Positions 4,736 to 62,394 of a DNA stretch of 64,000 nucleotides are shown piece after piece. Numbering within the stretch: the first letter of the stretch is position 1; each line of letters begins with the position of its first letter. Position numbers and translations under genes: made by a program. Origin of the DNA: Aedes albopictus (lineage: Eukaryota > Arthropoda > Insecta > Diptera > Culicidae); the NCBI RefSeq assembly GCF_035046485.1, contig NC_085137.1:4131977-4195976 (forward strand), in the 5' to 3' direction. The notes beneath the pieces were generated by a model. It was not told the origin of the DNA and ran no database searches. It saw only the letters and a program-made list of their open reading frames with translations.

Positions 4736-4738
4736 GTG

Positions 4739-17690: not shown

Positions 17691-17697
17691 GGAATCC

Positions 17698-39395: not shown

Positions 39396-39534
39396 ACAGA
39401 AGAACTTCCAAGCTACGCCAATGATGATCCAGTATTTAAATATGTATACAAATCCCAATACTTATCAAAACTTTTTGAACCTAATACGCACTTATCCGTA
39501 TTTAAACGATTATTTTAAATTTTCTCTCCTCCAG

Positions 39535-40079
39535 ACAAACGACATCTTCCTCCGCAAGCTGGCCGAAATGAACGTGACCGAACCGGTGTCGCAATTCGCT
39601 CCCCAAACATACGATGCGGTATGGGCGATCGCGTTGGCCCTCCGCGGCGCAGAACGAACGTGGACACAGGTAGCCCACCGGAACCGTACCCGGTTGGCCC
39701 ATTACGACTACACGCGGTTCGACATTGCCCAGGAACTGCTCAGCCAGTTCGACAGTCTGAAGTTCAACGGGATCTCCGGACCGGTTTCGTTCGATGGAGC
39801 CGATCGCGTGGGAACCACTTCGTTCCATCAGATCCAAAGCGGACGGCTGCAGCTCATTGCGTTCTACTATCCGAAGAACAATTCGTTGGATTTCGGTTGC
39901 CCCAAGTGCGGTATGGTGGAGTGGGAATCCGGACAGGTACCGATCGCGAAACGCAGCTTGAGACTTCGAGTTGACACCATTTCACCGTTGGCGTTCTACA
40001 TGGTGGTCGTGTTATCTGTGGTAGGAATTGGAATCTCGCTGTTGTTTCTTGGACTGAATCTACACTTCAGGAAACTCAA
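39535..40079 (+). CDS. GABA-B-R3: GABA-B-R3 coding exon 6, copy 1 (lobe end, linker and TM1)
   Basis: Residues 365-545 plus two bases of 546. The acceptor follows TCTCCTCCAG. Begins TNDIFLRKLAEM and contains APQTYDAVWAIALALRGAER, the end of the ligand-binding lobe (SGPVSFDGADRVG), a short Cys-containing linker (FGCPKCG) and TM1 (about 514-537). The donor is GTAAGA. The 54-bp intron that follows is very short. This exon and the next are repeated 13439 bp downstream. Confidence 0.93.
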
Positions 40080-40133
40080 GTAAGAGGTATTTATTTACTG
40101 GAAACATGGTTCTAATGTTTGTCTTAATTCCAG

Positions 40134-41811
40134 AGCGATCAAACTGTCCAGCCCAAAGCTGAGCACGATCACCGTTACCGGGTGTATACTAGTCTACATG
40201 GCCACGATCCTACTGGGGCTCGATCACTCAACACTACCCTGGTCATCGGTGACCTTCTCGTCGATCTGCATGGCCAGAATCTACTTTCTATCGGCTGGTT
40301 TCTCGCTCGCATTCGGATCGATGTTTGCCAAGACATTTCGAGTCTATCGGCTGTTCACGCACAGCGCCGGGGGACTCTGTAAGGATAAGATCTTGAGGGA
40401 TACTCAGTTGATCTCGGTGATCGGCGCATTGCTGCTGCTGGATGCCTGCGTTGTGTCGTTCTGGATGGCTGCGGATCCAATGGAGCGACACTTACATAAT
40501 TTGTCACTGGAGATCAGTGCTACTGACAGGACCGTGGTTTTCTTGCCGCAAGTCGAGCTGTGTCGATCGAGGCATTACGAAAGTTGGCTGGGTACGTTGT
40601 ACGCGTACAAAGGTCTCCTGTTGCTGGTGGGTGTCTACATGGCATGGCAGACTCGGAATGTGAAAATTCCAGCCTTAAACGATTCTCAGTACATCGGAAT
40701 TTCGGTGTACAGTGTGGTGATCACCAGCGCTAGCGTTGTAGTCCTAGCCAATTTGTTGTACGAGAAAGTAACCTTGGCGTTCGTGATCACGGCAGGTTTC
40801 ATTCTAGTCTCAACGACGGCAACGCTCTGCCTACTGTTTCTTCCGAAGCTGAAAGATATCTTCGATAAGGGCGAAGTGTACGATCCAGTTATCCACAGTA
40901 TGGGACTCAAAGTGGAATGCAACACTCGGAGATTTGTACTAGATGATCGCAGAGAGCTGCAGTTCCGTGTGGAGGTTCAAAATCGAGTGTACAAGAAAGA
41001 GATCGAGATGCTAGACGCGGAAATCGTTCGGTTGGAAAAACTCCTCAACGAAAAGTCTTCCAGATCTTCGTCGCGATCATCTGACCCGAACGTAAAACCC
41101 CTGGAAATGTCGGACCCCAGTACGACCAGTGGATTGCCAATGCTGCTACTATCCGTGCTTCCCCCGATCATACCTCGTGCGAGTTGGCCTTCCGTCGACC
41201 CTATGCTATCACCAATGAAGCGAAACGTGACCTTCAGCTCTCAGCCGCGGATCGAACTGAGTCGCGATCGAATGGGCCTATCTGGATATCGATCTTCGAG
41301 TATAGAGGAAGGTGGAGGAGGTGTGCTAAACCGAATCTGGAACCTGTTTGGACCGCGAATGCGCAATACTACGTCCGTGTCAACGCTTGGAGGTTTGAAC
41401 CTGGCCACTGTCATGCCTTCGAAACTCACGATCTTTGCGGAAGTGGACGCCGAAGATGAAGTGTCATCTATGAGTGATCGTCGACGATCGGATGTTTTTA
41501 CGATTAATCAAACATCCGTCGAAGATCTACGCTTGACAGGGTCCGAACCGAAGGTGAACTTCATGCTGCCACCTGTAGTAGCGAATCGACGATCCTCGAT
41601 CGTACCAACCCTTCGGGAGAGGATCAAAGGATCTCCCAGATTTCCCCACAGGGTTTGCCCGACCAGCAGCATGTCGGAATTGGTAGGGGACCGGGCGAAG
41701 ATCGGGTTTCTAACGGTGAAGAGCTGCGAGGTTTTGCAACGTAACAATAACGATCCCAAATCGAAGTGGAAATCGATGGATTCTTTTTCGAAGAATGTCG
41801 AGCAGTGTTGA
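40134..41811 (+). CDS. GABA-B-R3: GABA-B-R3 terminal coding exon 7, copy 1 (TM2-TM7 and tail)
   Basis: Residues 546-1104; first codon split (AA|A). Includes the intracellular loop Lys-Leu-Ser-Ser-Pro-Lys-Leu-Ser, TM2, the highly conserved AGFSLAFGSMFAKTFRVYRL at TM3, the PALNDSQYIGISVY segment, and TM7 ending PKL near residue 785. A coiled coil (about 822-852: LQFRVEVQNRVYKKEIEMLD) is the type used for GABA-B heterodimer contacts. The ~250-residue tail contains SPRFPHR and many Ser/Arg sites. Stop TGA is at 41809-41811. Confidence 0.94.
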
Positions 41812-41935
41812 GTTTTGAGTGGTGACAATGTAGGACCAATAACCCGTATAAATATCGGTTAACATTAGTTGATAGATGGTTGCAACTGAGTGCTGTGTTT
41901 CATAGAAAGCAATAAAATAAAATCGAATCAATGGT
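41812..41935 (+). terminator. 3' UTR and poly(A) signals, copy 1
   Basis: Two overlapping AATAAA hexamers at 41911-41921, about 100 bp after the stop codon. A nearly identical arrangement follows the duplicate stop codon at 55350. Confidence 0.7.
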
Positions 41936-42690
41936 AGTTTGTGTGAATGGAATTTATTAATCATAATAATCAAAGAAGAGTGGTTATTTCTTGTGCACAT
42001 ATCCGAACAAATTTTATTCCACTTTTTATTTAATTTAAAAGATTAGGTTTCTTAATACAAAACTGGGCCAGTCTTGTTTTCAGTAGGTCAGTTCCATTTT
42101 CACTAATTTGTTTCACTTTCTGAAATTACACGTTGTTACGCCAGGCAGATGAACGGGCCAATTTATGCCTGTCTTGTTCGGATGTCCGTTTTGACAGCTT
42201 AATAGATAATTCAGGTGCATGATCCAGTTCAGCACCAGTTGGGATTTTAAAAAGCAAAGCGATAAGAGTTAGTGTTCACAAATCACATTTCTTGAGCCAT
42301 GACGGGTATTTATAAATACACAAGCTTCTGTTCAGGGTTAGTTGAGGAATCAGTTGAAAAACGTGAATTAGTTTATGTTTTTGCTTTGAGATAACGCTAA
42401 ATTTCCAAAAGGATTTTTTGTTTTTCGACTTCTATGACACATGCTGTTGACCTTTGGTCATTTAAGGATTGTTCAATTTATAAAACGGACAAGTTTATAA
42501 GGCTAGTTCAAATTCTACCGTTAGGCCGAATGGTCATCAGGACGAATTTCATCTCAGCAGTTATGGTATTGGCAACGAAACGGTTTCTAAATTTGTTTGA
42601 CATTCCAATAATAGGAAGCGATCGGTAAAGTACAAGCTTGAAAGTAGTGACCTGGATTTTAGTATGGTGAGATGATCCATTCTCAGTAGA
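41936..42690. other. 3' flank, copy 1 of duplicated segment
   Basis: Closely similar to 55375-56125 (shared landmarks AACTGGGCCAGTCTTGTTTTC and CATTCCAATAATA), showing that the duplication extends well past the gene. No ORF. Near 42640-42680 lies the left arm of an inverted repeat whose partner in copy 2 is at 57905-57985. Confidence 0.75.
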
Positions 42691-42694
42691 TTCA

Positions 42695-42864
42695 TGTTGG
42701 CATATTGAACCGTGGACAACGACTCACGGCACATCAACTGATCCTAGTAGGCATGGCCAACCTCAGCCACCCGCGTCGTCGTCACTCGTATAGAAACGTC
42801 ACAGTGTGAAGTCAGATTGCATTCCGGCAGCTCCCGCTTGCTCGCAACAAATCTAAAGTGCACA
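42695..42864 (+). repeat. Left long terminal repeat (170 bp)
   Basis: Begins TGTTGGCATATTG and ends AAAGTGCACA (TG...CA). It matches 46438-46607 with about five substitutions in 170. A TGGCGATCCTGCCGGG sequence two bases downstream looks like a tRNA primer-binding site. The matching direct repeat also includes AGATTCA just upstream of both copies. Confidence 0.7.
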
Positions 42865-43207
42865 TTTGGCGATCCTGCCGGGTTTAATTTCAAGAGAACC
42901 TATTGGTAGTAGATGTGGGCAAGCGGGGGCATTCAAAAATAGTACTGATTGTGTGTGTTTTTTGACGTAGGACTACGTCTCTCTTTTCTATACCGGGTGT
43001 CATTCTAAATTTTCAGAAATCAGCCGCGTTACGTTTAAAGTGGAGATTTTGAGCGTTAATAGCTCAGCCATTTCTTGTTGAATTTTCAAAATTTTGGCAC
43101 CAATCGATTGCAAATCTTTACACCAATTATGTCCAATAATAATATTTGCTGTTTTTCAATAACAAACTATTGAAAAATTGGGAAAAGTGAACCCATGTTT
43201 ATTCCAG

Positions 43208-43265
43208 CCAATCACGATCGAGCACATTTTGGAGCACATTTTGGATGCTCCCGTCGAATATAAAA
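43208..43265 (+). promoter_or_regulatory. CCAAT + TATAAAA promoter-like cassette 1
   Basis: GCCAATCA with CCAAT at 43208-43212 is followed by TATAAAA at 43259-43265, a classical spacing. Downstream 43270-43720 is GC-rich with overlapping ORFs on both strands, none recognisable. Confidence 0.45.
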
Positions 43266-44090
43266 GCTACTGCTTCTTCGCATCTTCCCTCATTTGCCTT
43301 TGTCGTCTCGAGGTGAACGCATCGAACGAGAGCTGCCCACTTTCTTCGTTTGCGTTTTCGCTCATTGTTCTTTGACGGCCGTGTTGGCTCGGCGTCGGTG
43401 GTTGTCGGCAAGGGTGCTGTTGCACATTCGCCTTCTAACCGTCTAACGCGGCAGACGAAGGAAAGAATACGTTTCATCGATTGCTCGGCGGTGGTGGCAG
43501 AGGCAGCAAAATCCACAGAAAGATCAGCGACATACGAATTTGCGAGTTGCGTCGCTGTCCTCGGGGCTCGGTCCTTTCGCCGATTGATTGGCGGTGGCGC
43601 ATTGATGATAGCATCAGGAACATCCAGGGCAACAAGCGGCGGGCCAATTTTCGACGGCGTTCAGCATTCAGCACGGAGGAATCCAACACGCATTGCGTGG
43701 CATGATAAATTCATGTCATTTTTTGTCTAAAATCTTTCAATATTCAATCGGTTCTTTTCAGGACCATAGAAAATTATTCATCAAGAGTTGTGAATCAGAT
43801 AATTATTTCATTCCATCATGGATCGGTAAAAGTGTGGTGCAACCGAAAAGTGAAAGATTGAATGCTTGGTGGCCCCGCAAGAATGATGATGCCGGCCACT
43901 AATGGTTCCATCCGGAATTTATCAACCCTATCCGAACCATTTTTCGTGAAACATCGATAAATTATAACGTTGTTCGAGTTAAAATGATCTTAACCTTACA
44001 ATATTTTGATTACTTTATTCGTTAAATGAAAATTTTCTCATTTCTCGGTTGATTAACCGTTTCAAGCGTCTGGTGCATGCGGGGCGGGTC

Positions 44091-44160
44091 ATGCAAATAA
44101 AATATACTGAAAAGCCAGCCGAATGGGAGGAGCTTCATCTGCTAATCTAGGGCATAAAAG
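44091..44160 (+). promoter_or_regulatory. Octamer-like ATGCAAAT + ATAAAAG promoter-like cassette 2
   Basis: ATGCAAAT at 44091, then GCCAGCCGAATGGGAGGAGC and CATAAAAG at 44153-44160. A near-identical cassette lies 641 bp downstream. TCAGTC at 44198 could serve as an arthropod initiator, but the spacing is longer than usual. Confidence 0.45.
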
Positions 44161-44731
44161 CTGCTCCCTCTGATTTCTTTCGTCATTTTCGTTGGATCAG
44201 TCAAGCAGGGTGGATGTCACCTCCACACCTGAGCACTACCCATCGGCGACTCTCGGCTATCGTGCTGATAGCGTCATGAATCTTATCCACGGCAGAAAGC
44301 GGCCTACCAATTTTCGGTGGCATCCTGCAGGATTAGCACGGAGAAAACCAACACGCATTGCGCAGGCAAGGCGGTTTCATGCCATTTTCTTCCTGAAATC
44401 GTTACTTTATCAAACGGTCCTTATCAGGATCACCAAAAAATGATTCTTCAATAGTTGTAAATCAGATAATTTTACTCCATCAATCGAGAAAAGTGTGGTT
44501 CACCCGAAAAATGAATGATTGAATTCCGGCCACTAATGGTTCCACCCAGAATTCAGCAACGTATTACCCTATCAGGACTATTTTCCGTAAAACATTGTTT
44601 AACTCTAACAATTTTCGAATTAAAATGATCTGAATCATCCAATATTTTGTTTACTTTAACGCTTAATGAATTTTTTTTCCATTTCTGGGTTGATTAATCG
44701 TTTGAAGCGTCTGAAGCAGGCGGGGCGGGCC

Positions 44732-44801
44732 ATGCAAATGAAATATTCTGGAAAGCCAGCCGAATGGGAGGAGCTGCATCTGCTAATCTAGGGGTATAAA
44801 A
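44732..44801 (+). promoter_or_regulatory. Octamer-like ATGCAAAT + TATAAAAG promoter-like cassette 3
   Basis: Duplicate of the cassette at 44091-44160, with an exact TATAAAAG at 44795. The sequence immediately downstream diverges after CTCTGATTTCTTTC into short GTCGGGT repeats, so no shared transcript body is evident. Confidence 0.45.
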
Positions 44802-45125
44802 GCTGTTCCCTCTGATTTCTTTCTGGATTCCGCCAGACTGAAAAAATGTCGAATGTCGGGTTAAAGTCGGGTCAATTTTTATCGAATGTTGGGCCACTGT
44901 TGGACCAACATCGATCAACTATTGGGTCTATGTTAGGTTTGGTGGCTAAAATCAAAATAGGTGAATGATAGGTTGATGTCGGGTTTGACGTCATCAACTA
45001 TGGTAAAAGCTTTAAACCTACAACACCACAAATTTATGCTTCCTAGCTGGGGCTCAATTGAATGATGTGCCTTGACTGAGGCTGGAGCTGAAAATTAGTA
45101 AAAGCTCGAGATCAGTCTTACCCAA

Positions 45126-45177
45126 CCAATCACAATCAAGCATAGTTCTGTGAGGCGACACGACGAAACTTATATAA
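45126..45177 (+). promoter_or_regulatory. CCAAT + TATATAA promoter-like cassette 4
   Basis: ACCAATCACAATC (CCAAT at 45126-45130) and TATATAA at 45171-45177 repeat the layout of cassette 1. The 233-codon ORF starting at 45178 lies directly downstream. Confidence 0.45.
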
Positions 45178-45879
45178 GTGGTGCACACACTCATTTCGAT
45201 CATTTCATCGGCACACACAGCAGCGGACGGACAGCACCGAGCGGCAGCAAGATCCCAAAAAAGATCCGCTTCAACGGATGAGCAAGCGGGTGGCACCGCC
45301 CTCTGTCCAATGAAGCCTCGATTCTTTTCGGATCCATCGGCAGTGGAGGCAGTAGCGGAAGCAACATCCAAAGAAAAATCCGCCTCGGCAAACGAAAATT
45401 CGATTGGCGTCACTTTTCGTTTGCCGGGGCCCCGATTCTTTCATGGATTGCCGGCGGCAGCAGCAGCGAGATCCCAAAAAAGATCCGCTTCAACGGATGA
45501 GCAAGCGGGTGGCACCGCCCTCTGTCCAATGAAGCCTCGATTCTTTTCGGATCCATCGGCAGTGGAGGCAGTAGCGGAAGCAACATCCAAAGAAAAATCC
45601 GCCTCGGCAAACGAAAATTCGATTGGCGTCACTTTTCGTTTGCCGGGGCCCCGATTCTTTCATGGATTGTCGGTGGCAGCAGCAGCAAGATCCCAAAAAA
45701 GATCCGCTTCAACGGATGAGCAAGCGGGTGGCACCGCCCTCTGTCCAATGAAGCCTCGATTCTTTTCGGATCAATCGGTGGTGGCGGCATGGGTGGCAAT
45801 GAATTATACCAAAATGGTTCTTTTAAGGGCCCCAAAGCTTCCGAAAGAGTTATTTGGAGCATTATTCAATTATTTCTAA
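45178..45879 (+). CDS. Doubtful ORF made of a 219-bp tandem repeat
   Basis: A 233-codon frame directly after promoter-like cassette 4. It contains about 2.6 copies of a 73-residue unit, exact period 219 bp (landmark AGATCCC at 45250, 45469 and 45688). The unit includes RSQKRSASTDEQAGGTALCP and is rich in Ser, Ala, Lys and Glu. 219 is divisible by 3, so the frame is preserved, but minus-strand frames of 63-77 residues are also open across the same repeat. No known domain is recognised. It could be a captured gene fragment, an element-encoded protein or chance. I do not assign a function. Confidence 0.25.
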   Translation: MVHTLISIISSAHTAADGQHRAAARSQKRSASTDEQAGGTALCPMKPRFFSDPSAVEAVAEATSKEKSASANENSIGVTFRLPGPRFFHGLPAAAAARSQKRSASTDEQAGGTALCPMKPRFFSDPSAVEAVAEATSKEKSASANENSIGVTFRLPGPRFFHGLSVAAAARSQKRSASTDEQAGGTALCPMKPRFFSDQSVVAAWVAMNYTKMVLLRAPKLPKELFGALFNYF

Positions 45880-46437
45880 AAATTCAACTAATTCTAATTT
45901 TTATAGTTTAGTTTATCGATAAAGTTTAATTTTTATACTAAATATACACCGCTGTATATTTGGTATTTGAAATTCCAAATTTACTGTCAATGTCATTCCA
46001 ATCGAGTAGGATACCTGTCAAATGCGCTTTAAAGGCATTGCTCGGCAGCATCATCGTCATGATACGGGAATCATCATTACCAGCAACAATCGCCAGATTT
46101 CGAGTCTTTAGCATATAGTGATTTTACTCTGCCGTTATTTTTGCTGAATAGATACACGTTTACTTCATCTGTGAGCCCCAAATTCTTTATTATGCGTTAA
46201 AAATTAGTCCTACGTCAACATTGCGGTTATGTCTCAGACATTACACACCCCTAGTTTTTTATTTTCATAAGTGAAGTAACATGTATCGTCTGACGATAAT
46301 TTGGATGGAGTTTTTGCGTTGTTCGCAAGTTTTGGTTGTTATGACAAAAAGTTCAATAAAACTGCTTTTATACAGTTCGCAAGCGTTGTGGCTAGAGGGT
46401 AGTCTATGTGCAAATGCGCAAATGACGCAAAGATTCA

Positions 46438-46607
46438 TGTTGGCATATTGAACCGTGGACAACGACTCACGGCACATCAGCTGATCCTAGTAGGCATGGC
46501 CAACCTCAGCCACACGCGTCGTCGTCACTCGTATAGTAACGTCACAGTGAGAAGTCAGATTGCATTCCAGCAGCTCCCGCTTGCTCGCAACAAATCTAAA
46601 GTGCACA
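46438..46607 (+). repeat. Right long terminal repeat (170 bp)
   Basis: About 97 percent identical by eye to 42695-42864. It ends GTGCACA, directly followed by AAATGGAGAATTGAT, which resumes the duplicated flank that aligns with 57907 onward in copy 2. Confidence 0.7.
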
Positions 46608-47214
46608 AAATGGAGAATTGATAGCAGCTTTTAATCTAGTACTTCACTGATTGCGTCCTATTGACTACAATACTAAAATTGTACAATGGTTTTTACCGTT
46701 ATCAACAATTACTGCCCAAAATTATTTCTACAGTTTTACCATAGACTGTGTTGGTTTAACTTGAAAGAATAGCTCATATTTAAAAGAAGGAAAAGTTTTA
46801 CATTCGATTATTGGCAGATTCAGCACCGAAAACTAGTGTAAGCCTTCGTTACCAAAAAATTTTAACTAGGGAGATTCTTCCATTAATTCCTACCAGAGTT
46901 GCACTCTGTCACTATCAATATCAATGGTAAGCAAATCGCTGATTTTGATAAGCCGACTGCGATCCAAGTCAGCGTGCGCTTTATTGAGTCACCGTCACTT
47001 AACTTGTTCCATCAGAACTGGATCAGAAATTCGTTTAAAAACCCAAATGAAGATTTACCAAGATGATAATTTAATATGTGGTACAAAATAACAAGTTTTG
47101 CATGTTGGTCACAAAAAAGTTTGTGTTTTGGCGAAAACCACTAAAATATCACATCAGTTGCAATCTAGGATAGGATGTGACAACTGAAATTCGCCTGTCT
47201 TTTTATTTTTTCGT
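46608..47214. other. Flank resumption and gene-free spacer
   Basis: 46608 to about 46840 matches copy 2 at about 57907-58120 (CTAGTACTTCACT, CTATTGACTACAATACTAAA, GGCAGATTCAGCACC). Similarity then ends, marking the 3' limit of the duplication. Nothing else seen to 47214. Confidence 0.55.
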
Positions 47215-47216
47215 TA

Positions 47217-48595
47217 CACTGAAAGCAGCTTTGTAGTGAAATTTACTACAATGGGGGTTACAATTAACAGACTCGCACCAACGTTTTTCAACCGAAGTGA
47301 CTTCATGTTTATTATAAGAAGAAATGTAGTATTTTTTACTGTTCTTCTGAGTTTCTGTTAAGGTTGTTGTCTCTACTATTGAATATACCATTCATCAGTT
47401 AAATATACAACAATGTGGAGCGGACCTGTTGTGATGGTTAGAAGTCTTGACTATCATGCCGAGGACCTGGGATCGAATCCCACTCCCGACAAACTTGCAA
47501 AATGTGAGTTCTTCCTTCGGAAGGGAAGTAAAGTGTGGGTCCCGAGATGAACTAGCCTAGGGCTAAAAATCTCGTTAATACAGATAAAAAAAATATATAT
47601 ATATACAACAGAAGTTGTTTATTTTGACTACTGAAGATTTACTGCAGCGTGGCAGTATGTTTGTAGTAATTTTACATTGTAATTTTGAACCAACAAGTTT
47701 TATTTGAAATAATTTTATTTTATATTTAAAATACAGAAAAGATACAAATATCTCTAACATAAATAAAAAAAAGCATAAAGCGCTGGCACGATTGTCCGAT
47801 GCTAGTAAAGGAACACTTGAAAAACATAATTAGCTAAGGTACGAGTTAGTTTGCAGAGGTTTGCAGCCGTTTTTGGGGTTCTTTCAAGGTTGTGCCGGGA
47901 ATTTTTAGGAGCTGTTTTGTAGCAACAATCCTGAAAAGAACGCTACCTCTAGTAAACTTATTTATTTCAAAGACTAATGTAAACTTACCGTGAGAGACTA
48001 GAAATCCTCTTGGTCAGCTCGGGAAATCATTAACATTATCAGCATCTGAAAGCGGCAGCAAAGCGGCAAAATCTGAATAGCATAAAGTTATATTTTTGTG
48101 AATTTTGGTTTTTCAGGTGGGCGGCGATTAATTACATTAAGTAACACTGTTTTGCACAATCGTTTTTGATTAAAAAAGTCGCAAAAAGTTATTTTTTTTC
48201 GTAGCCAAAACAAACAAGTATTTTTCTGTCAACAAACACCTGACTACATTAACAGTAAAATTAACCACAAATAACTTCGGTTATATTTCGTTGGTATAAT
48301 ATATTCAATACTACTACAAACATGGTAAAATCGAGAGTGTAACATCATTGAACCATGCATCACTATTATCTTTACCACGAGCATAGTAGTTTTTGCTATC
48401 AAATATGCTCATGCTATTAGGTATTTTGAAAACACTGCGTGGTTAATTTTCCCAGAGAATCACGATGAAAAATAGGTTCAAAACAACCATTTGTCAGTCA
48501 ATTTCCCTAATTTTATGGTGCTTTTAACCAAATTTTATGCTTGTGAATTCAACAACACGTTTCTCGTTTAAAGTACAATGAAATTGATTTCAGTG
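47217..48595. mobile_element. Possible TA-flanked element with CACTGAAA ends
   Basis: TACACTGAAA at 47215 and TTTCAGTGTA at 48588 are perfect inverted 10-mers, compatible with TA target duplication and CACTGAAA termini of a Tc1/mariner-like element. The termini are short, so chance is possible. The interior is AT-rich and carries an inserted SINE. Confidence 0.35.
47413..47600 (+). mobile_element. tRNA-derived SINE with 10-bp target duplication
   Basis: The head contains GTGATGGTTAGAAGTC (A-box-like) and GGGATCGAATCCC (B-box-like). The body includes CCTAGGGCTAAAAATCTCG and ends in an A-rich and TA-rich tail. Perfect direct repeats ATATACAACA flank it at 47403-47412 and 47601-47610. It differs from the Feilai-type copy in this window. 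Confidence 0.8.
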
Positions 48596-48689
48596 TAGAT
48601 TTCGTCGATGATGAAAATTCAGTGCTACCACTTTACTTTATTCCAAATCTTTCAGACAATTTAAATTTAACGATTGCAATTATAATGAA

Positions 48690-49970
48690 TAACTTGAGAA
48701 GCATTTCTGCAGAATCCCGAAGAAAATTCTCACAAAAAATCTGTAGAGGATTCTCATCCCAAGTATTATTTGATAGTCAAATAGCCTTAAGGAGGTTTTT
48801 AGAACCACCATAAAAACAAAATATTAGGTATAAGGTTTTATGATGGTTCTCAAAACCTCTACAAGATCAAATTGTTACTTGGGATAGAATCCTGAGGGGC
48901 AGACTCCCAGAATCCAGAAGCGGATGCTCCCAGGAACTATCATAGAATCCTTTCAGAATCCAGAGGATGCTCCTAGAATCCTGAGCGGGATGATACCAGA
49001 GTCTTGAAGAGGATTCTCACAAAAATCTGATGAGGATTCTCCTAAAGAGGATCTTGGCAAAAACCTGAGGGAGGAGGATTCTTCCAAAATCCAGAGGAGA
49101 ACTCTCCCAGAATCTTAAAGAGCATTCTCACAGAATCCTGAGGAAGATTTATACAGGATCCATAGCAGGATTCTTTAAGTAGAATGACACTAGAATCACA
49201 GAAACCTGGGAAGGATTCTTACAGAAGATTTTTTCCAAAAACTTGAGGAAGAACCTAGAGGCAAACTTTCCCAGGATCTTGAAGATGATTCTCAGAGAAA
49301 CTTGAGAACCATTCCCGCAGAGTCCCGAAGAGAATTATTAGTAAAAATTTGAAGAGAATTCTCATAGAATCCTCCGAGTAGAATGACACTAAAATCTTGA
49401 AGATGGTTTTCACAGAAACTTGAGAAGGATTCTCACAGAAGGATTTTCCCAAAAACTTGAGTAAGATTCTGATGCCCTCAGAATCTAGAGGCAAACTTTC
49501 CCAGGATCTTGAAGATGATTCTCATAGAAACTTGAGAACCATTCCCGCAGAGTCCCGAAGAAAAATCTGAAGAGGATTCTCATAGAATCTTCAGGAGCAC
49601 TCTTTCAAAATCCAGAGGATGCTCCTAGAATTCTGAAGGGGATGTTACCAGAATCTTGAAGAGGATTCTCAAAAAAAAATCTGATGAGGATTCTCCTGAT
49701 GTGATTGCTCCCATAATCCAGTGGTAGATTCTCCCAGATTCTTGAAGAGGATTCTCACAGAATCATGACTGAGACACTCACCGAAATCTTAGAAAGATTC
49801 TTACAGACTCCAGAGGAGTATGCTCCCAGAATCCTGAAGAGGATGATACTGAATTTGGAGAAGATTTTCACAGTAACCTGGGGAGGATTCTTACTTAATC
49901 CAGAAAAGGATTCTCCCAGAACCCTGAGGAGAATATTCACAGAATCCTGAAGAGGATTCTCTCAGTATCC
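48690..49970. repeat. Class C degenerate repeats
   Basis: GAAGAGGATTCTCACAGAATCC-like copies. A segment of about 240 bp repeats (CCCAGGATCTTGAAGATGAT at about 49270 and 49500), so local segmental duplication has occurred. ORFs here are repeat translations. Confidence 0.6.
48758..48883. mobile_element. 126-bp MITE with CCCAAGTA / TACTTGGG termini
   Basis: CCCAAGTATTATTTGAT at the left and ATCAAATTGTTACTTGGG at the right form the outer stem. An inner stem pairs AGGAGGTTTTTAGAACCACC with the GGTTCTCAAAACCTC side. The termini match those of the ~1-kb elements E1-E3, so this may be a short relative. Confidence 0.65.
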
Positions 49971-50480
49971 CGACCCATCCGAGAGCAAATAACAAGATTA
50001 TAACAAAATTATTCGAACTATTGTAAGAAATAGCAAAAGGTGATATCATTTTGTTGCATGGGTATATCTATGTGAATATTCATAACTAAGTTATACTCAT
50101 ATTTGTTTTTATTTTAAGTATCAAAATTATAACAAAACTTGTTATTTTGTTCAGACAGATATATAAGAAAATTTGTTACATAATGCATAATAATACAATT
50201 TCCTACAACACAATTTCGTACATTTTTATTGCAATATTTGTAATGTTTATTGTAACAAAGTTATTTTTTTTAAATATTTTGTATTGTTGCGAAAAAGTTC
50301 GATATTTTTTTGTTATTTTGATCACTCGAACCAAGAAAATTATTACAAAACTTATAATAAATTGTTTCTGAAATAAATAATAGAATTTGTTATAATCTTG
50401 TTATGATTAAATCTCAGTTTGTTATATTTTAGTATCATTTGGAGGGAGTTTTGTTAGAATTTTTGCTTGGTATTCATTCA
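49971..50480. repeat. AT-rich MITE-like stretch
   Basis: Rich in AACAAGATTATAAC-, TTGTTATAATC- and GTAACAAAG-like words resembling the AT-rich MITEs at 37858-38906. Possible ends are AGCAAATAACAAG and the complement of TTAGAATTTTTGCT. Boundaries uncertain. Confidence 0.35.
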
Positions 50481-50485
50481 AAGTA

Positions 50486-50698
50486 GGGTCTTGTACCATT
50501 TGGGCAGGTGTACCTATTTTGGGCACTTGCTGCTATAACTAAATCAATTTTCAATCGATTGACTTGATTTTTTGTACAGAGTTAGGCACGTACAGTTTCT
50601 AACTCTATGCAAAAATTCAAAACAATCGGTTTGAAATTGACTTAGTTATAGCGGCAAGTGCCCAAAATAGGTACACCTGCCCAAATGGTACAAGACCC
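50486..50698. mobile_element. 213-bp MITE (ACCATTTGGGCAGG family), copy 2
   Basis: Inverted repeats of about 65 bp begin GGGTCTTGTACCATTTGGGC. The right side is a close complement, ending GGTACAAGACCC. Same family as 28078-28283; the internal loop differs. No clean target duplication here. Confidence 0.7.
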
Positions 50699-50895
50699 TG
50701 CATGTTTTATAGCGACCGTTGTTACAAGAAACAATGTAACAAAATATCAAACTGAAACTCAAAGCGTTTCAGGTAATTTCAGGGTTTTTTTTCATCTTTA
50801 TTAACGCAATTTCAGGGTGTTTAGGGGGCTTCACTGGCTTTCAGGTGATTAAAGGAATTTCTAGGCGTTTTGAGAGGTGTTTCAAGAAGTTTTAA

Positions 50896-52466
50896 CCTTT
50901 GAAACCGGATTTTTTCCAAGCGTTATTATGGAGTATTTTCTACGTATTTCTGTAGTTTTGGTGCTCAATAGCATGAAAAAGGTAGAATATTCTGCAGAAT
51001 TTTTTTTCCGTATACCATAAGATCAGCTGGGGCGATTCAAACTTTTCTTGTGTTTAATATCTAAGTATGTACCAGAAGCTATGGTCTCCGGAGTAGTGCT
51101 GTTGATCTGGAATATCTCATAACTATTTTGGATTGACTTATGATATGACAGGGGGATAACAGATTACTGTTTAATGTTCATTGTGAGAATAACTACTATT
51201 ACTGTCAAGAGTTTATGTTCAGGCTAGTTTGAATGATTCTCAATGTCCCAAAGGTACATAATAATGTATAGTATACCTCAGGTTGGTCCAGTCACCGCGA
51301 TTGATTATGAAACTTTACTCAGTATGTCAGATATAGCTGATGTTACGAGTGTAGACCTAAAGATCTGAACTTCAATATAGTTTGGCTAACCTGGAATATT
51401 CCCATAGTATCTCTTAATAACTTTTGATATTTCAAGAGCTTTACGGATCTCAGCAGAATATGTCATGCTATTATTTATGGCGAAAACAAAAAGTTTTTCT
51501 TGTAGATTTGTAAGATTTTATTTTAGAACAGTTTGCACGACCCTGAATGTCCCAAAGGTTAATAATAATCAAGTAGGCTTCTGATTGGTCCAGTAACCAC
51601 AGATAAATATGCAACGTTACTTAGTATTGCAGATATGACAGTTTACACGAATGTAGACTTGATGTTCTGAACTCCAAGCTAGTTTGGCTGATCTGAAATA
51701 TTCCTATATTGTCTCTAAATGACATTTGAGATTTTCAGAGCTTCAAGGATCCCAGCAGATTATGCAATACTATGATTTGTGGTAAAACACATAAAGTTGC
51801 TTTTGTGGATTTGAAGGACATCATTATAGAACAGTTTGGACGACCCTGAATATCCAAAAGGTTATAATTAGCCAGTAGACTTCAGATTGCTCCAATAACT
51901 ACGGTTAATTATGCAGCGTTACTCAGTATAACAGATATGGCTACTATTACGATTGTAGACCTGAAGTTCTGAACTCCAAGGTAGTTTGGCTGACCTGGAA
52001 CATCCCTATAGTGTCTTCAAATGACATTGTAAATGTCAAGAGCTTCACGGATCCCAGAAGGTTATGCAATGCTATTTTTTGTGGCGAAAATACATAACAT
52101 TATTCTTGTAGATTTGAAGGACTTCACTATAGGACAGTTTGGAACACCTAGAACATCCCAAAATATAAAACACAGTTTGATATTCTTGACAAAGGCTAAA
52201 TGAATACATATAAACGTAACCACCATCCAGTTCAGCTTCTAGAACAACTGTTATGTCAATTATTTCGTTTTTCCACATTTCATGGTGTTCAGGATGTTCT
52301 AGGTTATCAATGAAGGCCTAAATACAAATATTCCGATTTTCCCTAACAGAGGACTCAATTTGCAACAACTTTGCCCAAGACAGTATTCTGTTTTATTGAA
52401 TGGGTGAATTTATACAGCCATTTCTATGTTGGGGTCATCATATATGACTCCTCGGGCTCCAAAGGG
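50896..52466. mobile_element. piggyBac-like TTAA element containing ~303-bp tandem repeats
   Basis: TTAA at 50892-50895 and 52467-52470. The ends CCTTTGAAACC and the complement of GGCTCCAAAGGG resemble each other and begin with a piggyBac-type CC(C)TTTG. The 1.57-kb interior has no transposase. It has three clear diverged copies of a ~303-bp unit, landmark AATGTCCCAAAGG or AATATCCAAAAGG near 51242, 51546 and 51849, and a partial copy on either side. Confidence 0.55.
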
Positions 52467-52470
52467 TTAA

Positions 52471-52860
52471 GGCATTGAAGCGCATTTCAGGAGGTTTCAG
52501 AAGACTTGAGGGCGTTTCAAAAGACTTCAGAGAGATTCCTTGAAGTTTAGGGGGCTTCAAAAATTTTTAGGTTAACTTTCCGAGGAATTTCAGAGGCGTT
52601 TCAAGGGTTATCAGAAGATCTCTAGAGGACTTTACTGCCCTTCAGATGAGCTGTGGGGGATTTCGGGAGCATTTCAGGGGTTGTTCAAGGCGTTTCAGGG
52701 TGTTTGAAGGCATTTCAGGTGGTTTCACAGGGGTTCTCAGGGTTTTAGGCAGCTTCACAGAATTCCAGGTGAGCTTCAGGGTCTTAAAGGTGTTTAAGGC
52801 GTTTCAAGGGATTCTGATGGGTTCCCAGGGGTTTCAGGGGCATCTCAAGGGGGTTTCAAA
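52471..52860 (+). repeat. Class A repeat block upstream of duplicated exon 6
   Basis: TTTCAGGGGTGTTTCAAGG-like copies stop about 110 bp before the duplicate acceptor. They mirror the block at 39241-39395 and are a possible substrate for the recombination that made the duplication. Confidence 0.6.
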
Positions 52861-52973
52861 CAGAACTACTCTCCTATGTTATCTACAATAGAACTTGCTA
52901 GCTACGCCAATGATGACCCTGTGTATACAACTCTCAATACTCTTCAATTCATTTTGAGTATTCTCTTCCCCAG

Positions 52974-53518
52974 ACAAACGACATCTTCCTCCACAAGCTG
53001 GCCGAAATGAACGTGACCGAACCGGTGTCGCAATTCGCTCCCCAAACCTACGACGCGGTATGGGCGATCGCGTTGGCCTTACGTGGCGCAGAACGAACGT
53101 GGACACAGGTGGCCCACCGGAACCGTACCCGGTTGGCCCATTACGACTACACGCGGTTCGACATTGCCCAGGAACTGCTCAGCCAGTTCGACAGCCTGAA
53201 GTTCAACGGGATCTCCGGGCCGGTTTCGTTCGATGGAGCCGATCGCGTGGGAACCACTTCGTTCCATCAGATCCAAAGCGGACGGCTGCAGCTCATTGCG
53301 TTCTACTATCCGAAGAACAATTCGTTGGATTTCGGTTGCCCCAAGTGCGGTATGGTGGAGTGGGAATCTGGGCAGGTGCCGATCGCGAAGCGCAGTTTGA
53401 GGCTTCGAGTTGACACCATTTCTCCGCTGGCGTTCTACATGGTGGTTGTGTTGTCGGTGGTGGGAATTGGAATCTCGCTGTTGTTTCTTGGACTGAATCT
53501 ACACTTCAGGAAACTCAA
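52974..53518 (+). CDS. GABA-B-R3: GABA-B-R3 exon 6, copy 2
   Basis: Same length (545 bp), phase and splice signals as 39535-40079: acceptor TTCCCCAG, donor GTAAGA. Its protein differs at one residue of 181 (Arg371 to His). The Venus-flytrap end, linker and TM1 are intact. Several synonymous changes separate the copies. No exon equivalent to exons 1-5 lies between 41.8 and 52.9 kb, so a complete receptor would need splicing from exon 5 at 30034. Alternatives are an unexpressed relic or an assembly duplicate. Confidence 0.85.
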
Positions 53519-53572
53519 GTAAGAAGTATTTAATTACTGGCAGCGTGGTTTTAATACTTTTTCTACTTCCAG

Positions 53573-55250
53573 AGCGATCAAACTGTCCAGCCCAAAGCTG
53601 AGCACGATCACCGTTACCGGGTGTATACTAGTCTACATGGCCACGATACTACTGGGACTCGATCATTCAACGCTACCGTGGTCATCGGTGACCTTCTCGT
53701 CGATCTGCATGGCCAGAATCTACTTTCTGTCGGCTGGTTTCTCGCTCGCATTCGGATCGATGTTTGCGAAGACATTTCGAGTCTATCGACTGTTCACGCA
53801 CAGCGCCGGGGGACTCTGTAAGGATAAGATCTTGAGGGATACTCAGTTGATCTCGGTGATCGGTGCATTGCTGCTGCTGGATGCCTGCGTTGTGTCGTTC
53901 TGGATGGCTGCGGATCCAATGGAGCGACATTTGCATAATCTGTCACTGGAGATCAGTGCTACCGACAGGACCGTGGTTTTCTTGCCGCAAGTCGAGCTGT
54001 GTCGATCGAGGCATTACGAGAGCTGGTTGGGAACGTTGTACGCATACAAAGGTCTCCTGTTGCTGGTGGGTGTCTACATGGCATGGCAGACTCGGAATGT
54101 GAAAATTCCGGCTTTAAACGATTCGCAGTACATTGGAATTTCAGTGTACAGCGTGGTGATCACCAGTGCAAGCGTTGTAGTCCTAGCCAATTTGTTGTAC
54201 GAGAAAGTAACATTGGCGTTCGTGATCACGGCAGGTTTCATTCTGATCTCAACGACGGCAACGCTCTGCCTACTGTTTCTTCCGAAGCTGAAAGATATCT
54301 TCGATAAGGGCGAAGTGTACGATCCAGTTATCCACAGTATGGGACTCAAAGTGGAATGCAATACCCGGAGATTTGTGCTGGATGATCGTAGGGAGCTGCA
54401 GTTCCGAGTGGAGGTTCAAAACCGAGTGTACAAGAAAGAGATCGAGATGCTAGACGCGGAAATCGTTCGGTTAGAAAAACTCCTCAACGAAAAGTCTTCC
54501 AGATCTTCGTCGCGATCATCTGACCCGAACGTAAAACCCCTGGAAATGTCGGACCCCAGTACGACCAGTGGATTGCCAATGCTGCTACTGTCCGTGCTGC
54601 CCCCGATCATACCACGTGCGAGTTGGCCTTCCGTCGACCCTATGCTATCACCAAAGAAGCGAAACGTGACCTTCAGCTCTCAGCCGCGGATTGAACTGGG
54701 TCGCGATCGAATAGGCTTATCTGGATATCGATCTTCGAGTATAGAGGAAGGTGGAGGAGGTGTGCTAAACCGAATCTGGAACCTGTTTGGACCACGAATG
54801 CGCAATACTACGTCCGTTTCAACGCTTGGAGGTTTGAACTTAGCCACAGTCTTGCCTTCGAAACTCACGATCTTTGCGGAAGTGGACGCCGAAGATGAAG
54901 TGTCGTCTATGAGTGATCGTAGACGATCGGATGTTTTTACGATTAACCAGACATCCGTCGAAGACCTACGCTTGACAGGGTCCGAACCGAAAGTGAACTT
55001 CATGTTGCCTCCTGTTGTAGTGAATCGACGATCCTCGATCGTACCAACCCTTCGGGAGAGGATCAAAGGATCTCCCAGATTTCCGCACAGGGTTTGCCCG
55101 ACCAGCAGCATGTCGGAATTGGCAGGCGAACGGGCGAAGATCGGGTTTCTAACGGTGAAGAGCTGCGAGGTTTTGCAACGTAACAATAACGATCCCAAAT
55201 CGAAGTGGAAATCGATGGATTCTTTCTCGAAGAATGTCGAGCAGTGTTGA
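53573..55250 (+). CDS. GABA-B-R3: GABA-B-R3 terminal exon 7, copy 2
   Basis: 1678 bp, the same length as 40134-41811, ending in TGA at 55248-55250. It is open throughout and has all seven-membrane-segment landmarks and SPRFPHR. Eight residue changes against copy 1: V771I between TM6 and TM7, and seven in the tail (about M907K, S922G, M926I, plus Met to Leu, Ala to Val, Val to Ala and Asp to Glu further on). The membrane core is otherwise identical although silent sites differ, the pattern of protein-level constraint. Confidence 0.87.
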
Positions 55251-56125
55251 GTTTTGAGTGGTGACAATGTAGGACCAATAACTCGTATATAACTCGGTTA
55301 ACATTAGCTGATAGATGGTTGCAACTGAGTGCTGTGTTTCATAGAAAGCAATAAAATAAAATCGAATCAATGGTAGTTTGTGTGAATGGAATTTATTAAT
55401 CATAATAATCAAAGAAGAGTGGTTATTTCTTGTGCACATATCCGAACAAATTGTATTCCACTTTTTATTTATTTTTTAAGATTAAGTTTCTTAATACAAA
55501 ACTGGGCCAGTCTTGTTTTCAGCAGGTCAGTTTCATTATCATTAATTTGTTTCACTTACTGAAATTACATGTTGTTACGCTAGGCAGATAAACGGGCCAA
55601 TTTATGCCTGTCTTATTCGGATGTCCGTTTTGACAGCTTAATAGATAATTCTGTTGCATGATCCAGTTCAGCACCGGTTGTCATTTTGAGAAGCAAAGCG
55701 ATAAGAGATAGTGTTCACAAATCATATTTCTTGAGCCATGACGAGTATTTATAAATACACAAGCTTCTGCTTAGGGTTAGTTGAGGAATCAGTTGAGAAA
55801 AAGTGAATCGGTTTTTGTTATTTCTTTGAGATAACGCTAAATTTCCAAAAGGATTTTTTGTTTTTCTACTTCTATGACACATGTTGTTGGCCTTTGGTAA
55901 TTTGAGGACTGTTAAATTTAAAAACGGAGAAATTTATATATAAAGGCTAGAAAAAAGCATTGTTCAAATTCAACCATCAGGATGAATTTCAACACAGCAG
56001 TTATGGTATTGGCACCGAAACAGTTTTTGAATTTGTTAGACATTCCAATAATAAAAAGCAATCAGCGAAGCACTAGCTTGAACGTAGTGAGCTTGATTTT
56101 TGTATGATGAGAAGATCAATTCTCC
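55251..56125. other. 3' UTR and flank, copy 2 of duplicated segment
   Basis: Aligns with 41812-42690. AATAAA hexamers at 55350-55360. High similarity through about 56100, after which the copies differ by separate insertions. Confidence 0.75.
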
Positions 56126-56544: not shown

Positions 56545-57500
56545 ATATTTGAGCCTCAAGGAGAAACATCAGAGAAAACCAATATGGCTGCCACAATGGC
56601 CGACTTGGACCCCTACTCATGTTTTCAAGAGCACCAATCTTGAAAATTCGTAAAAAAATGCGCTCGATTTGGAATAGCTGCCTCTTTTTGCAAGTGAGCA
56701 AAGCCAGGATAAACAAGTGCGGCTTGATTCGAGGCTTCCTTCGTTAGATTTGTGCCTCTGAAGTTTGTTTGCAAAATTGCAATGGGATTTGTTGATGTTT
56801 CACCTAAAACTACTAAAAAAAGCTGCCACTTTGAATTTTGAGCCGCCATTTAGGATTAAGTCAGCAATTCTGGAAATTCTGGTCGCCATGTTTGGACTCC
56901 AGACTTCTTCGTACCACATATACCCTAAAACTCCATGAAAACGCCGTCATATTGACTTTTAGGCCGCCATTTTGGGTACCAAATATACACACATCGTATG
57001 GCTTTGAAACCTAAAAATCCATTAAATAGCTGACATCTTGAGTTTTGAGTCACCATCTTGGAATTTAGACCGCCATCTTGAATATTCTGGTTGCCATTTT
57101 TGGTCTCCAGACATCTTCCCGATACCCAATACACCCAAAGGTTTTGGAGCCCAAAACTCCATTAAACAACCATTATCTTGAATTTTCAGACGCCATCTTG
57201 GAAATTTTGGTCGCCATTTTTCGACTCCTGACGTCTTCCTCATACCAAATATATCAATAAAACAGTTTTGGAACCTAAAACACCAATAAACAGTGGCCAT
57301 CTTGAATTTTGAGCTGCCATCTTGGATTTTCGACCGCTATGTTGAATTCTCTGGTCGCCATTTTTGGACTCCAGACAAATGTACCCATATTACATGGTTA
57401 TGCGGCCCAAAATTCTATTAAACAGCAGCCATCTTGAATTTTGAGCCTCCATCTTGAATATTAGACTATCATCTGAAATTTTTAGCCGACATCGTGGAAT
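56545..57500 (+). repeat. Degenerate ~125-140-bp tandem repeats rich in GCCATCTTG
   Basis: Landmark CCCAAAACTCCATTAAACA or variants recurs near 57010, 57148, 57272 and 57402. Each unit carries two to three GCCATCTTGAATTTTGAG or TCGCCATTTTTGG words. At least nine GCCAT(C/T)TT-type words occur between 56850 and 57440. No coding function. Confidence 0.6.
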
Positions 57501-57559
57501 TTTGGTCTTCAGTGTTGATTTCCGCACAACATTCCTCATTTATGCTAAAGGATATAAAA

Positions 57560-57860
57560 ATCGGTGCAGTTTGATGTGTCGCATGATATGGCTCGATTCC
57601 GTTTTATATACTGGCCGTATAGTTCATCGGTGCTGGTCCGGATCATAAAAATGGCCATAGCTCCGGAACGCCTTGACCGAAGTGCAAGTGCATTTTTTTT
57701 TGCGCACAGACATACATACATACATACACACATACAGACATCATCTCTATTCATCGAACTGAGTTGATTGGTATATGTGACTCGACTCTCCGAGCCATCT
57801 ATAGAAAATTAGTTTTTTCAGTGAACATATAGCCTTTCAGTACACTTTGGTGTTCGAGAA
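57560..57860 (+). repeat. Transposon-derived block with (CATA)n microsatellite
   Basis: A GC-moderate segment (AATGGCCATAGCTCCGGAAC) is followed by a CATACATACATACATACACA microsatellite at about 57710-57740 and a block ending AGAAAGGCAAAAAG. It looks like part of a dispersed element; family not determined. Confidence 0.4.
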
Positions 57861-58400
57861 AGGCAAAAAGAAAAAGCTGACTACGCCGTTGCACCATTTC
57901 ATTGCAGAAATGGAGAATTGATCTTCTCACCATACAAAAATCCAGCTCACTACTTTCAATCTAGTACTTCACTTATTGTTTCCTATTGACTACAATACTA
58001 AAATTTTACCGTTATCAACCTTTGCCGCCCAAAACTATTTCAATAGTGGAACTTAAAAGAATAGCCTATATTGAAAAAAAAAATGAATAAATATTGGCAG
58101 ATTCAGCACCAACATCTAATTTAACTCTTCTATTAGGAGGGGTTGCTTAACGAGAATGTTTATCAACCAAATTTCGACACGAGAAGCAGATATTCTTCTA
58201 ATTTAGAGATTTTTTTTTGAGGATTGTTGGAATGGCCACCTGGTTCCGGAGTTATTCCGGAATCAAAATGAGTCAATGGAATTGGGCCATTTTGGAAAAA
58301 GTGAATTTTTGATATGGGAACAGTTTATTTTTCAGACCTAACCCAAGTAACAATTCTATTGCTGATTGGTTTTGTTTGATTTTTATTAGGGTTTTATTAC

Positions 58401-59488
58401 TTACCTTACCGATCTGGCTAAAGCCGGGGTGGCCTCTGCTGTACATACAGGGGGTGGCCAAAATGTTTGGGATAGGCAACTTTTTTTCTCCCACAAAAAA
58501 AAATCAACATGCTGTAACTTTTCATAGAGTGCATCAAAAAATCTCAAATTTTGACTATTTATCAACCTATTATATGTGCATCATTGGTACAAAATCTGAC
58601 TCGATTGAATAATTTTTCGCGAAGTTAGAACCGTTCGGGTAAAACACTATTTTTTAGCCAACTCATTTTTGAGCTGTCATATCTCAGAAACTAGTGAACC
58701 GAATTGAATGAATTTTTTAACGTTTATCAACAATATATTGATACCTAATACAACGTTATAAAATGTAATATTTTCTCACGGAGAATTAAGTTATACCGGG
58801 TTGAAATTTTTACCCATATAGAGGAAAATAAGTAATTTTACAATAGCACACAAAAATTACTAAATGTGTTCTTTGGACATCAACACTAAAATTTATTGAC
58901 ACCTTCGTAAAAAAATTACATTTTTTCGAGAAAAATCCAAAAAGTGTCAACCCATGATAACTTTTTTCAACGTTCAAAAAGTATCTATGTTTTAATGGTT
59001 TGAAAAGCATTTATATATTGTTAGTGTACGTACAAAATTTCATTCAATTCGGTTCAGTGGTTTCCGAGATATGACAGCTCAAAAATGAGTTGTTCAAAAA
59101 TAGTGTTTTACCCGAACGGTTCTAACTTTGCGAAAGATTAATCAATCGAGCCCGAATTTGTACCAATGATGCACATATGATAGGTTGCCAAACAGTCAAA
59201 ATTTGAGATTTTTTGATGCACTCTATGAAAAGTTATAGCATGTTGAGCTTTTTTGTGGGAGAAAAAAAGTTGCATATCCCAAACATTTTGGCCATCCCCT
59301 GTAGTAGCCGCCTCCATTCCACTCGGTCCATGGCTGTTGGTCTCCAGTTCCGCACTCTGCGTAGGGTCCGCAGATCGTCCTCCACTTGGTCGACCCACCT
59401 AGCTCGCTGCGCTCCACGTCTTCTTGTACCGGTCGGATGACTCTCGAGAACCCGACTAAAATGGGGTTGCTATCCGACATCCTGATGA
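58401..59488 (-). mobile_element. 5'-truncated non-LTR retrotransposon, itself interrupted
   Basis: On the minus strand 59302-59480 encodes the end of a non-LTR ORF2: TRRRGAQRARWVDQVEDDLR then TLRRVRNWRPTAMDRVEWRR, a C-terminal pattern I associate with RTE-like mosquito elements. It resumes at 58400-58440 as AEATPALARSV, interrupted by the mariner-like MITE. The minus 3' end is a GTAAG repeat. TTTATTAC flanks the insertion on both sides, consistent with target-primed reverse transcription into E3. Confidence 0.7.
58448..59301. mobile_element. Tc1/mariner-like foldback MITE, 854 bp
   Basis: TA at 58446-58447 and 59302-59303. Termini are CAGGGGGTGGCC and the complement of GGCCATCCCCTG. Inverted similarity extends about 300 bp into each side, through the AAAATGTTTGGGATA, GAACCGTTCGGGTAAAACAC and GAGCTGTCATATCTC regions. 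No transposase. It splits the retrotransposon C-terminus. Confidence 0.75.
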
Positions 59489-59748
59489 TTTATTACAGCA
59501 TTAATTAAAACACTGTTTTATGACTACTTTGATGACAACCATTGATAAAATGTTTTATTAGTACACTTGAAGAAATCCATAAATCCTGGTTTTAAGAGTA
59601 AACAAAACTCTCCGATATGTGAACCTTCTGGCATTCATTATTACCACAATAAAACTGTTCAAACTCTCAACAGATAGCGATCCGTTCAATTAGTAACGAC
59701 ATCTGTTGGTGGAAAAGCAGAAACTACGACACGGCTAGGTATATTGCG

Positions 59749-59920
59749 TATAAGTGTAGAATTAGCATTTAACCCTTCAGCGCGCGCGCTGTTGTAAAAA
59801 GTACAATACTACCAAAAAACCTCGCTTTTCGTATACAGCGCAAGCGCGGCGGTGCAGTTCCGTTTGCTTGATGGTGCGCGTCCTGGAAGTTTAAGTTAAA
59901 ATACACGTTAATACAAAAAG
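59749..59920 (+). repeat. GC-rich short interspersed element, copy 2
   Basis: Inserted in E3, with GGTATATTGCG on both sides (59738-59748 and 59921-59931) as a probable 11-bp target duplication. Contains TTAACCCTTCAGCGCGCGCG and a CCTCGCTTTTCGTATA core, homologous to the minus-strand sequence at 97-212. Confidence 0.6.
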
Positions 59921-60200
59921 GTATATTGCGGTCATCATAAAAGTATACTTGCTTTCGTTCTATTTTCGCTAGTTTTGGTCTTCGCCATATTGAAGAATTG
60001 GCTGACGTGAATGGAAAATAGTTAATTTTGCTGAAATAAGCAGTGAATTGATAGTTTGCCGCCATTTTCATATCATGCCGGAAGATTCTCTTAAAGAGGT
60101 TATCAAGAGGTTTTGATGTTTAAATCAGTTTTATTGCAAGTTTTATAAAATTAGTTAAGATCTCTTAAAGAGCCTAACAAAACTTAAAATGTTACGTGGG

Positions 60201-61290: not shown

Positions 61291-61375
61291 GAGTAGTTGA
61301 AGGACTAAACGTGAGGTAAAAAAGGGTTCACGGGAATGGTACTGAGGCGGGAGTAACATATTCTGCTTCGGGCAT

Positions 61376-62340: not shown

Positions 62341-62394
62341 TCGTTATGGTAAGCAATTTCGTCATACACTTCGGAAACATCTGAGAGGGAATGC

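Follow-up and report, generated by a model that had tools for sequence, protein, structure and literature searches.

The 64,000-nucleotide stretch of the Aedes albopictus genome analysed here (the window, C2:4131977-4195976) carries a gene for a GABA-B-R3-type receptor subunit, a class C G-protein-coupled receptor (GPCR), in which five upstream exons are followed by two complete copies of the terminal module made of exons 6 and 7. On balance, this gene is probably one of two GABA-B-R3 paralogues lying in inverted arms, with terminal modules that were later duplicated in tandem and act as alternative terminal exons.

Shared upstream exons and a duplicated terminal module

As an earlier sequence-only reading had reported, exons 6 and 7 occur at 39535-41811 and 52974-55250 with a constant offset of 13439 bp. 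Both modules are 2277 bp long and have identical parts (545 bp for exon 6, 54 bp for intron 6 and 1678 bp for exon 7), with intact splice sites and stops (GTAAGA donors, CAG acceptors, TGA) and two overlapping AATAAA signals for poly(A) addition at an equal distance past the stop (41911/41916 in the proximal and 55350/55355 in the distal module). The equal lengths and the intact splice sites, stops and poly(A) signals had been described correctly, as had the 9 differences among 740 residues of the module products. The modules align without gaps and with 100 mismatches, and about 80 synonymous differences separate them; in the 3' untranslated region (UTR), a stretch of 120 bp (41871-41990) shows no difference at all. 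The local repeat is slightly longer than previously given, since self-BLAST of the window pairs 39512-42684 with 52951-56124 at 93.7%, and weaker homology continues upstream for about 150 bp (39362-39478 against 52851-52957, 72.7%). A 2.3-kb repeat at 96% is not due to chance. An origin of either module as a retrocopy is rejected, the 54-bp intron 6 being retained in both.

Exon 5 ends and both copies of exon 6 start at a codon boundary (phase 0), and exon 5 joined to either module yields an uninterrupted frame of 1104 amino acids (aa) without a stop. The first residue of the module is number 365 of 1104, which falls within the Venus flytrap domain; the module therefore cannot make that domain alone. 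Of the nine differences, seven affect the C-terminal tail, one the flytrap domain and one the membrane domain, leaving proteins that are 98.8% identical. No upstream coding exons other than exons 1-5 are recognised in the window. The claim that they occur once is right for the window but not for the genome, which holds a second set on the minus strand. Shared upstream exons followed by homologous modules of compatible phase, each with its own acceptor, stop and poly(A) signal, are the arrangement to be expected of alternative terminal exons.

The assignment to a GABA-B-R3-type gene also holds, the subtype name being taken over from the sequence-only reading and resting on database labels, not on a tree. 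The module frames match PF01094 and PF00003 above the Pfam cut-off, exon 6 containing the last part of the receptor ligand-binding domain and exon 7 the class C seven-transmembrane (7TM) domain. Among the best 120 of 335 listed matches, the full-length relatives of the proximal-module protein are mosquito GABA-B receptor subunits headed by P0001, an NCBI Aedes albopictus protein of 1104 aa; NCBI names the mosquito relatives 'subunit 2' or '2-like' and those of some other insects 'subunit 3' or 'GABA-B-R3'. Among the best 60 of 92 listed matches, residues 91-790 of P0001 match solved GABA-B subunits by sequence, and residues 809-851, which we take to be a coiled coil, match 5gwm_B (50 residues, 'Metabotropic GABA-B receptor subtype 3, isoform A'). 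In the sequence that separates the modules, a tblastn search with P0001 and another mosquito protein, P0002, at E 1e-3 detects no remnant of a further exon 1-5 set in the interval between them. According to an Ae. aegypti paper, which contains none of the R3 spellings tried, Drosophila has three GABA-B subtypes (PMC11008680).

A paralogue in an inverted arm and the history of the modules

DNA searches covered the whole 1.344-Gb genome. With the proximal module as query, three module copies are found (3 of 3 candidates), the third at C2:4432070-4434346 on the opposite strand, and exons 2-5 exist in two copies (2 of 2 candidates). The additional copies belong to a second complete gene, R, which runs on the minus strand from C2:4464698 (exon 1) to C2:4432070, about 250 kb from the window gene, and which has only one terminal module. 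The spliced product of R equals the public P0001 at all 1104 residues, so that P0001 is the product of this paralogue; the window gene, with its products of the same length, differs from P0001 at 13 positions with the proximal module and at 12 with the distal one.

Both genes lie in collinear inverted arms of 91.4 and 97.6 kb, composed of blocks at about 69-99% identity and extending from C2:4124948/4492273 to about 4216391/4394713, as aligned from pieces of at least 80 bp near the expected diagonal. Past the outer edge (C2:4124948/4492273), N-free sequences of 22.9 and 21.7 kb share just three pieces of 62-234 bp, each of them in direct orientation; therefore, inverted collinearity stops there. 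Towards the spacer, sequences of 29.6 and 40.7 kb have 15 pieces of 66-591 bp in common; their orientation is mixed, as expected of dispersed repeats.

Synonymous divergence (dS, NG86 method, bootstrap range in brackets) is lowest between the proximal and distal modules, at 0.16 (0.128-0.202), and reaches 0.21 between the distal module and R (0.165-0.254), 0.25 between the proximal module and R (0.203-0.308) and 0.19 between exons 1-5 of the window gene and R (0.138-0.247). Nonsynonymous divergence (dN) is about 0.005-0.006 in all module and exon comparisons. Private changes, meaning those unique to one copy with the two others as background (six all-different sites excluded), comprise 5 nonsynonymous and 44 synonymous changes in the proximal module (5/49), 4 and 29 in the distal one (4/33) and 4 and 65 in that of R (4/69). 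Neutral simulations give means of 33.8, 23.0 and 46.9 nonsynonymous changes, respectively, and for none of the three copies does any of 2000 neutral replicates fall as low as the observed count. The nonsynonymous shares do not differ significantly among copies (Fisher p 1.0, 0.49 and 0.27). Because private changes are mostly synonymous against the neutral expectation, both modules appear to have been selected as protein-coding sequence for most of their separate life, and such purifying selection is what alternative terminal exon modules should display. The deficit of nonsynonymous changes also speaks indirectly for present or past translation of both.

The copies are also linked by conversion-like tracts. 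In distal coordinates, the proximal module equals R over an unbroken run of 25 informative sites within the 3' UTR and flank (55558-55890, a length never reached in 10000 permutations), the distal module equals R at 15 consecutive sites (55962-56027, 1 of 10000) and the proximal equals the distal module at 8 consecutive sites at the end of exon 7 (55136-55202, 39 of 10000), run lengths being somewhat inflated by a test that mixes coding and noncoding sequence of different rates. Further downstream, a 5.1-kb flank (57358-62498), of which a piece is a dispersed repeat, is present in full length in the two arms only, among the candidates scored (40 of 19230). Its identity of 98.7%, while dS in nearby coding sequence is about 0.2, looks like the trace of a recent exchange or homogenisation between the inverted arms.

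The 3' flank of the distal module is collinear with R for kilobases, and exon 5 stands 22.0 kb from the module in R, 22.9 kb from the distal module in the window and 9.5 kb from the proximal one. In intron 5 of R, a piece near the start matches window positions 31361-31655 (68%) and a piece near the end matches the sequence immediately preceding each window module (about 100 bp, 76% and 85%). The order of these short pieces (95-301 bp) fits a tandem duplication of the intron 5 end, exon 6, exon 7 and flank. On this evidence, the distal module is the positional counterpart of the R module and the proximal module is read as the extra one, which probably arose by tandem duplication of the intron 5 end, exons 6-7 and about 0.9 kb of flank. 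At residue 430, both window modules encode Q, R encodes K, and the 10 mosquito proteins chosen for polarising amino acids (P0002-P0010 and P0012, Anopheles proteins being left out) have K or R in all 10 cases. Together with the order of dS (0.16 < 0.21, 0.25), Q430 suggests that the module duplication came after the gene or arm duplication, as a preference rather than a proof in view of overlapping dS intervals.

Between the modules lies a repeat (42688-46607) whose inner part has matches of 97-99% identity, 2.3-3.3 kb long, at 32 other listed places (33 of 4964 candidates scored). We interpret this repeat as a recent insertion abutting the proximal unit on its 3' side, later than the module duplication. 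Other repetitive sequences, at 37.5-39.2 and 48.9-50.0 kb, might, speculatively, have mediated the exchange that created the module copy. An inner open frame with repeated units is present in the young repeat at 45178-45879.

Use of the two modules and competing explanations

In the scenario considered most probable, two complete paralogues, the window gene and R, would have come to lie in large inverted arms on one chromosome, and after arm formation the 3' part of the window gene, from the intron 5 end to about 0.9 kb of flank, would have been duplicated in tandem. Exons 1-5 would now precede two complete modules, each with acceptor, stop and poly(A) signal, and both would be retained as functional coding sequence. 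Exon 5 could be joined to the proximal exon 6 and the transcript end at the poly(A) site of that module; alternatively, splicing could bypass the proximal module in favour of the distal one. Either choice would give a full 1104-aa class C receptor subunit, and the two proteins would be nearly equivalent. Splicing of exon 5 to either copy, as the sequence-only reading had proposed, is indeed possible, both joins being in frame; with nine differences, functional diversification of the two isoforms is not evident. Cis-splicing to either module is the simplest route to translation because exons 1-5 are intact and two complete modules under selection follow them. We infer, from the sequence, splicing of both modules from exon 5, the origin by tandem duplication and its place in the order of events, as well as the mode of choice between the modules, the outcome of which would mainly be redundancy or dosage. 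The acceptors are alike, with 15-16 pyrimidines in the last 20 positions before CAG; therefore, no measured feature predicts a strong preference for one module. With just one flytrap, one membrane and seven tail differences, similar signalling is expected of both products, although effects that depend on the tail are possible.

Several points weigh against this scenario. The dS confidence intervals overlap, and tail positions 922, 926 and 973 group the distal module with R, a pattern read as gene conversion or homoplasy. Moreover, the acceptor and poly(A) signals of the proximal module look no worse than their distal counterparts, so that the distal module may seldom be reached. Finally, a run of 23 N, probably a scaffold gap, is found in the spacer between the arms (C2:4243334-4243356); the arms are hence not on one gapless stretch and their relative orientation is not independently proven.

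Because seven of the nine differences fall in the C-terminal tail, a regulated choice may be envisaged in which each module is selected for a separate role in expression or trafficking, conversion between the inverted arms keeping their cores alike; this version is considerably less probable than the one with near-equivalent products. It is unlikely, to a slightly greater degree, that one module only is used and that the other is a recently stranded passenger kept clean by gene conversion or by the short time elapsed. The first complete acceptor/poly(A) unit on a transcript normally captures most processing, and the conversion-like runs of 25, 15 and 8 sites would provide the cleaning. However, neither module has lost its splice sites, stop or poly(A) signals, and conversion from the two other copies cannot supply the low nonsynonymous share seen among private changes. 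The idea that the distal module forms a separate short gene, driven by a promoter of its own and encoding a 7TM protein devoid of most of the Venus flytrap domain, is the least probable of all and very doubtful. It is compatible with the distance of about 10 kb between the modules and with a distal module that is intact and whose private changes are mostly synonymous, but a young repeat fills over a third of that interval, exon 1-5 matches are absent from it at E 1e-3 and the module starts inside the flytrap fold. The sequence-only reading had likewise envisaged a truncated 7TM product, which finds no positive support, as neither an own initiator, signal peptide nor 5' exon is recognised, although no systematic search for 5' exons was made.

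A further rival is an assembly artefact, with the modules or the arms being uncollapsed alleles of one locus in a very heterozygous species. Ae. albopictus assemblies are known for retained haplotypes: draft assemblies are credited with about 5.29% heterozygosity and with duplication of about 82.9% of single-copy genes (PMC10993458), and likely duplicate artefacts are listed for the species (PMC7448346). The 98.7% identity of the 5.1-kb flank between the arms and the N run in the spacer would also fit. On the other hand, dS values of 0.16 for the modules and 0.19-0.25 for the arms are far above a heterozygosity of about 5.3% (PMC10993458), though the measures differ. Furthermore, alignment of the intron sequence preceding the two modules is limited to pieces no longer than 184 bp, at about 67-91% and many of them repetitive, which argues against alleles because these should align over kilobases. 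The window contains no N, the arms are inverted in the assembly with a homology bounded at the outer edge, and a third module copy exists elsewhere in the genome. Neither allele-level divergence nor alignable introns are thus observed, and the uncollapsed haplotype, named beforehand as the case that would overturn the duplication, is rejected as the most likely explanation and judged improbable.

Related architectures and other features of the locus

Shared 5' exons followed by repeated, alternatively spliced two-exon 3' modules are described for PGRP-LC of Anopheles and Drosophila in PMC2715215, where the modules derive from exon re-duplication with the intron at the same relative position. 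The PGRP-LC modules encode distinct domains with isoform-specific roles and their splicing is demonstrated, whereas the window modules, with products that are nearly identical, belong to a class C GPCR and their splicing is inferred. The architecture of the window gene would thus resemble that of mosquito PGRP-LC, but in a class C receptor and with modules seemingly not yet visibly diverged in function. Homologous 3'-terminal exons with separate poly(A) sites constitute a recognised class, which includes human capping protein beta and Drosophila examples, CG42235 being among the trans-spliced genes (PMC3228551). These genes, like that of the window, have homologous ends of similar length, every one of which carries a separate stop and poly(A) site, and the choice among them is made by splicing or 3'-end processing, as it would be in the window; human capping protein beta differs in that it has homologous 3'-terminal exons where the window has a two-exon 2.2-kb coding module with a whole transmembrane domain. 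In Ae. albopictus itself, a triplicated PPO cluster confirmed by in situ hybridisation is another local multiplication of a chromosomal segment (PMC7448346), but in the window the arms are inverted and one of them has a partial intragenic duplication. Duplication of a terminal module in a GABA-B receptor did not appear among the titles and abstract starts listed from open-licence PubMed Central text (subscription papers not searched), two of the listings showing 10 of 17 and 8 of 24 entries.

If both modules are used, the gene would be a natural experiment on how a receptor gene tolerates and retains an internal duplication of its signalling half. The 9 amino acid and about 80 synonymous differences make RNA reads assignable to each module. 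Where there is one public protein model, the genome also has another gene and a third terminal module, which would confound RNA interference, CRISPR and expression work on GABA-B signalling in this vector.

Features of the window gene and its surroundings (window positions)
Feature	Position	Strand	Basis
Exon 1: ATG, signal region, Venus flytrap domain start	21259..21678	+	tblastn with P0001, spliced model
Exon 2	28897..29040	+	tblastn with P0001, spliced model
Exon 3	29132..29407	+	tblastn with P0001, spliced model
Exon 4	29721..29786	+	tblastn with P0001, spliced model
Exon 5: shared donor exon, phase 0 end, GTAAGC donor	29849..30034	+	tblastn with P0001, spliced model
Proximal copy of duplicated unit, read as the extra one	39512..42684	+	self-BLAST
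Exon 6 proximal: Venus flytrap domain end, linker, first membrane helix (by inspection)	39535..40079	+	
Exon 7 proximal: remaining 7TM domain, coiled-coil region, tail, TGA	40134..41811	+	
Proximal poly(A): two overlapping AATAAA	41911..41921	+	
Repeat between modules, 177-bp direct end repeats (97.2%)	42688..46607	.	self-BLAST and genome search
Distal copy of duplicated unit, positional counterpart of the other gene's single module	52951..56124	+	
Exon 6 distal	52974..53518	+	
Exon 7 distal, TGA stop	53573..55250	+	
Distal poly(A): two overlapping AATAAA	55350..55360	+	
3' flank, 98.7% identical to inverted arm R	57358..62498	.	arm alignment, genome search

The duplicated stretch further includes part of a gene that encodes a Rel homology dimerisation domain, with open frames of 236 and 223-224 aa in each arm. 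Those of the window side, to which Pfam was applied, stand just outside the window (about 69994-71364, minus strand), with the DNA-binding domain just under the cut-off. From these frames, it appears to be a second gene common, at least in part, to both arms of the segmental duplication. PMC12510663 contains no match for REL1, dorsal, Relish or the word stem 'duplicat'.

In intron 3, a block at 29490-29652 includes 126 bp (29490-29615) without any mismatch to R, and introns 2 and 4 match R at 51/59 and 51/62 sites. Potential acceptor sites are present in the block together with a GTAAGA donor and an in-frame stop that comes early, and no Rfam match at the gathering threshold and no Pfam match in two peptides are obtained; the block is a candidate for a poison exon or for a short gene-conversion tract. 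Just past exon 5, a tRNA-like match (30331-30403, minus strand; Rfam tRNA, 38.4 bits) overlaps a stretch repeated at 4738-4988 (76.6%) and is possibly a tRNA-derived short interspersed nuclear element. Upstream of exon 1, positions 15618-18137 consist of a long series of divergent tandem repeats in which several frames are open.

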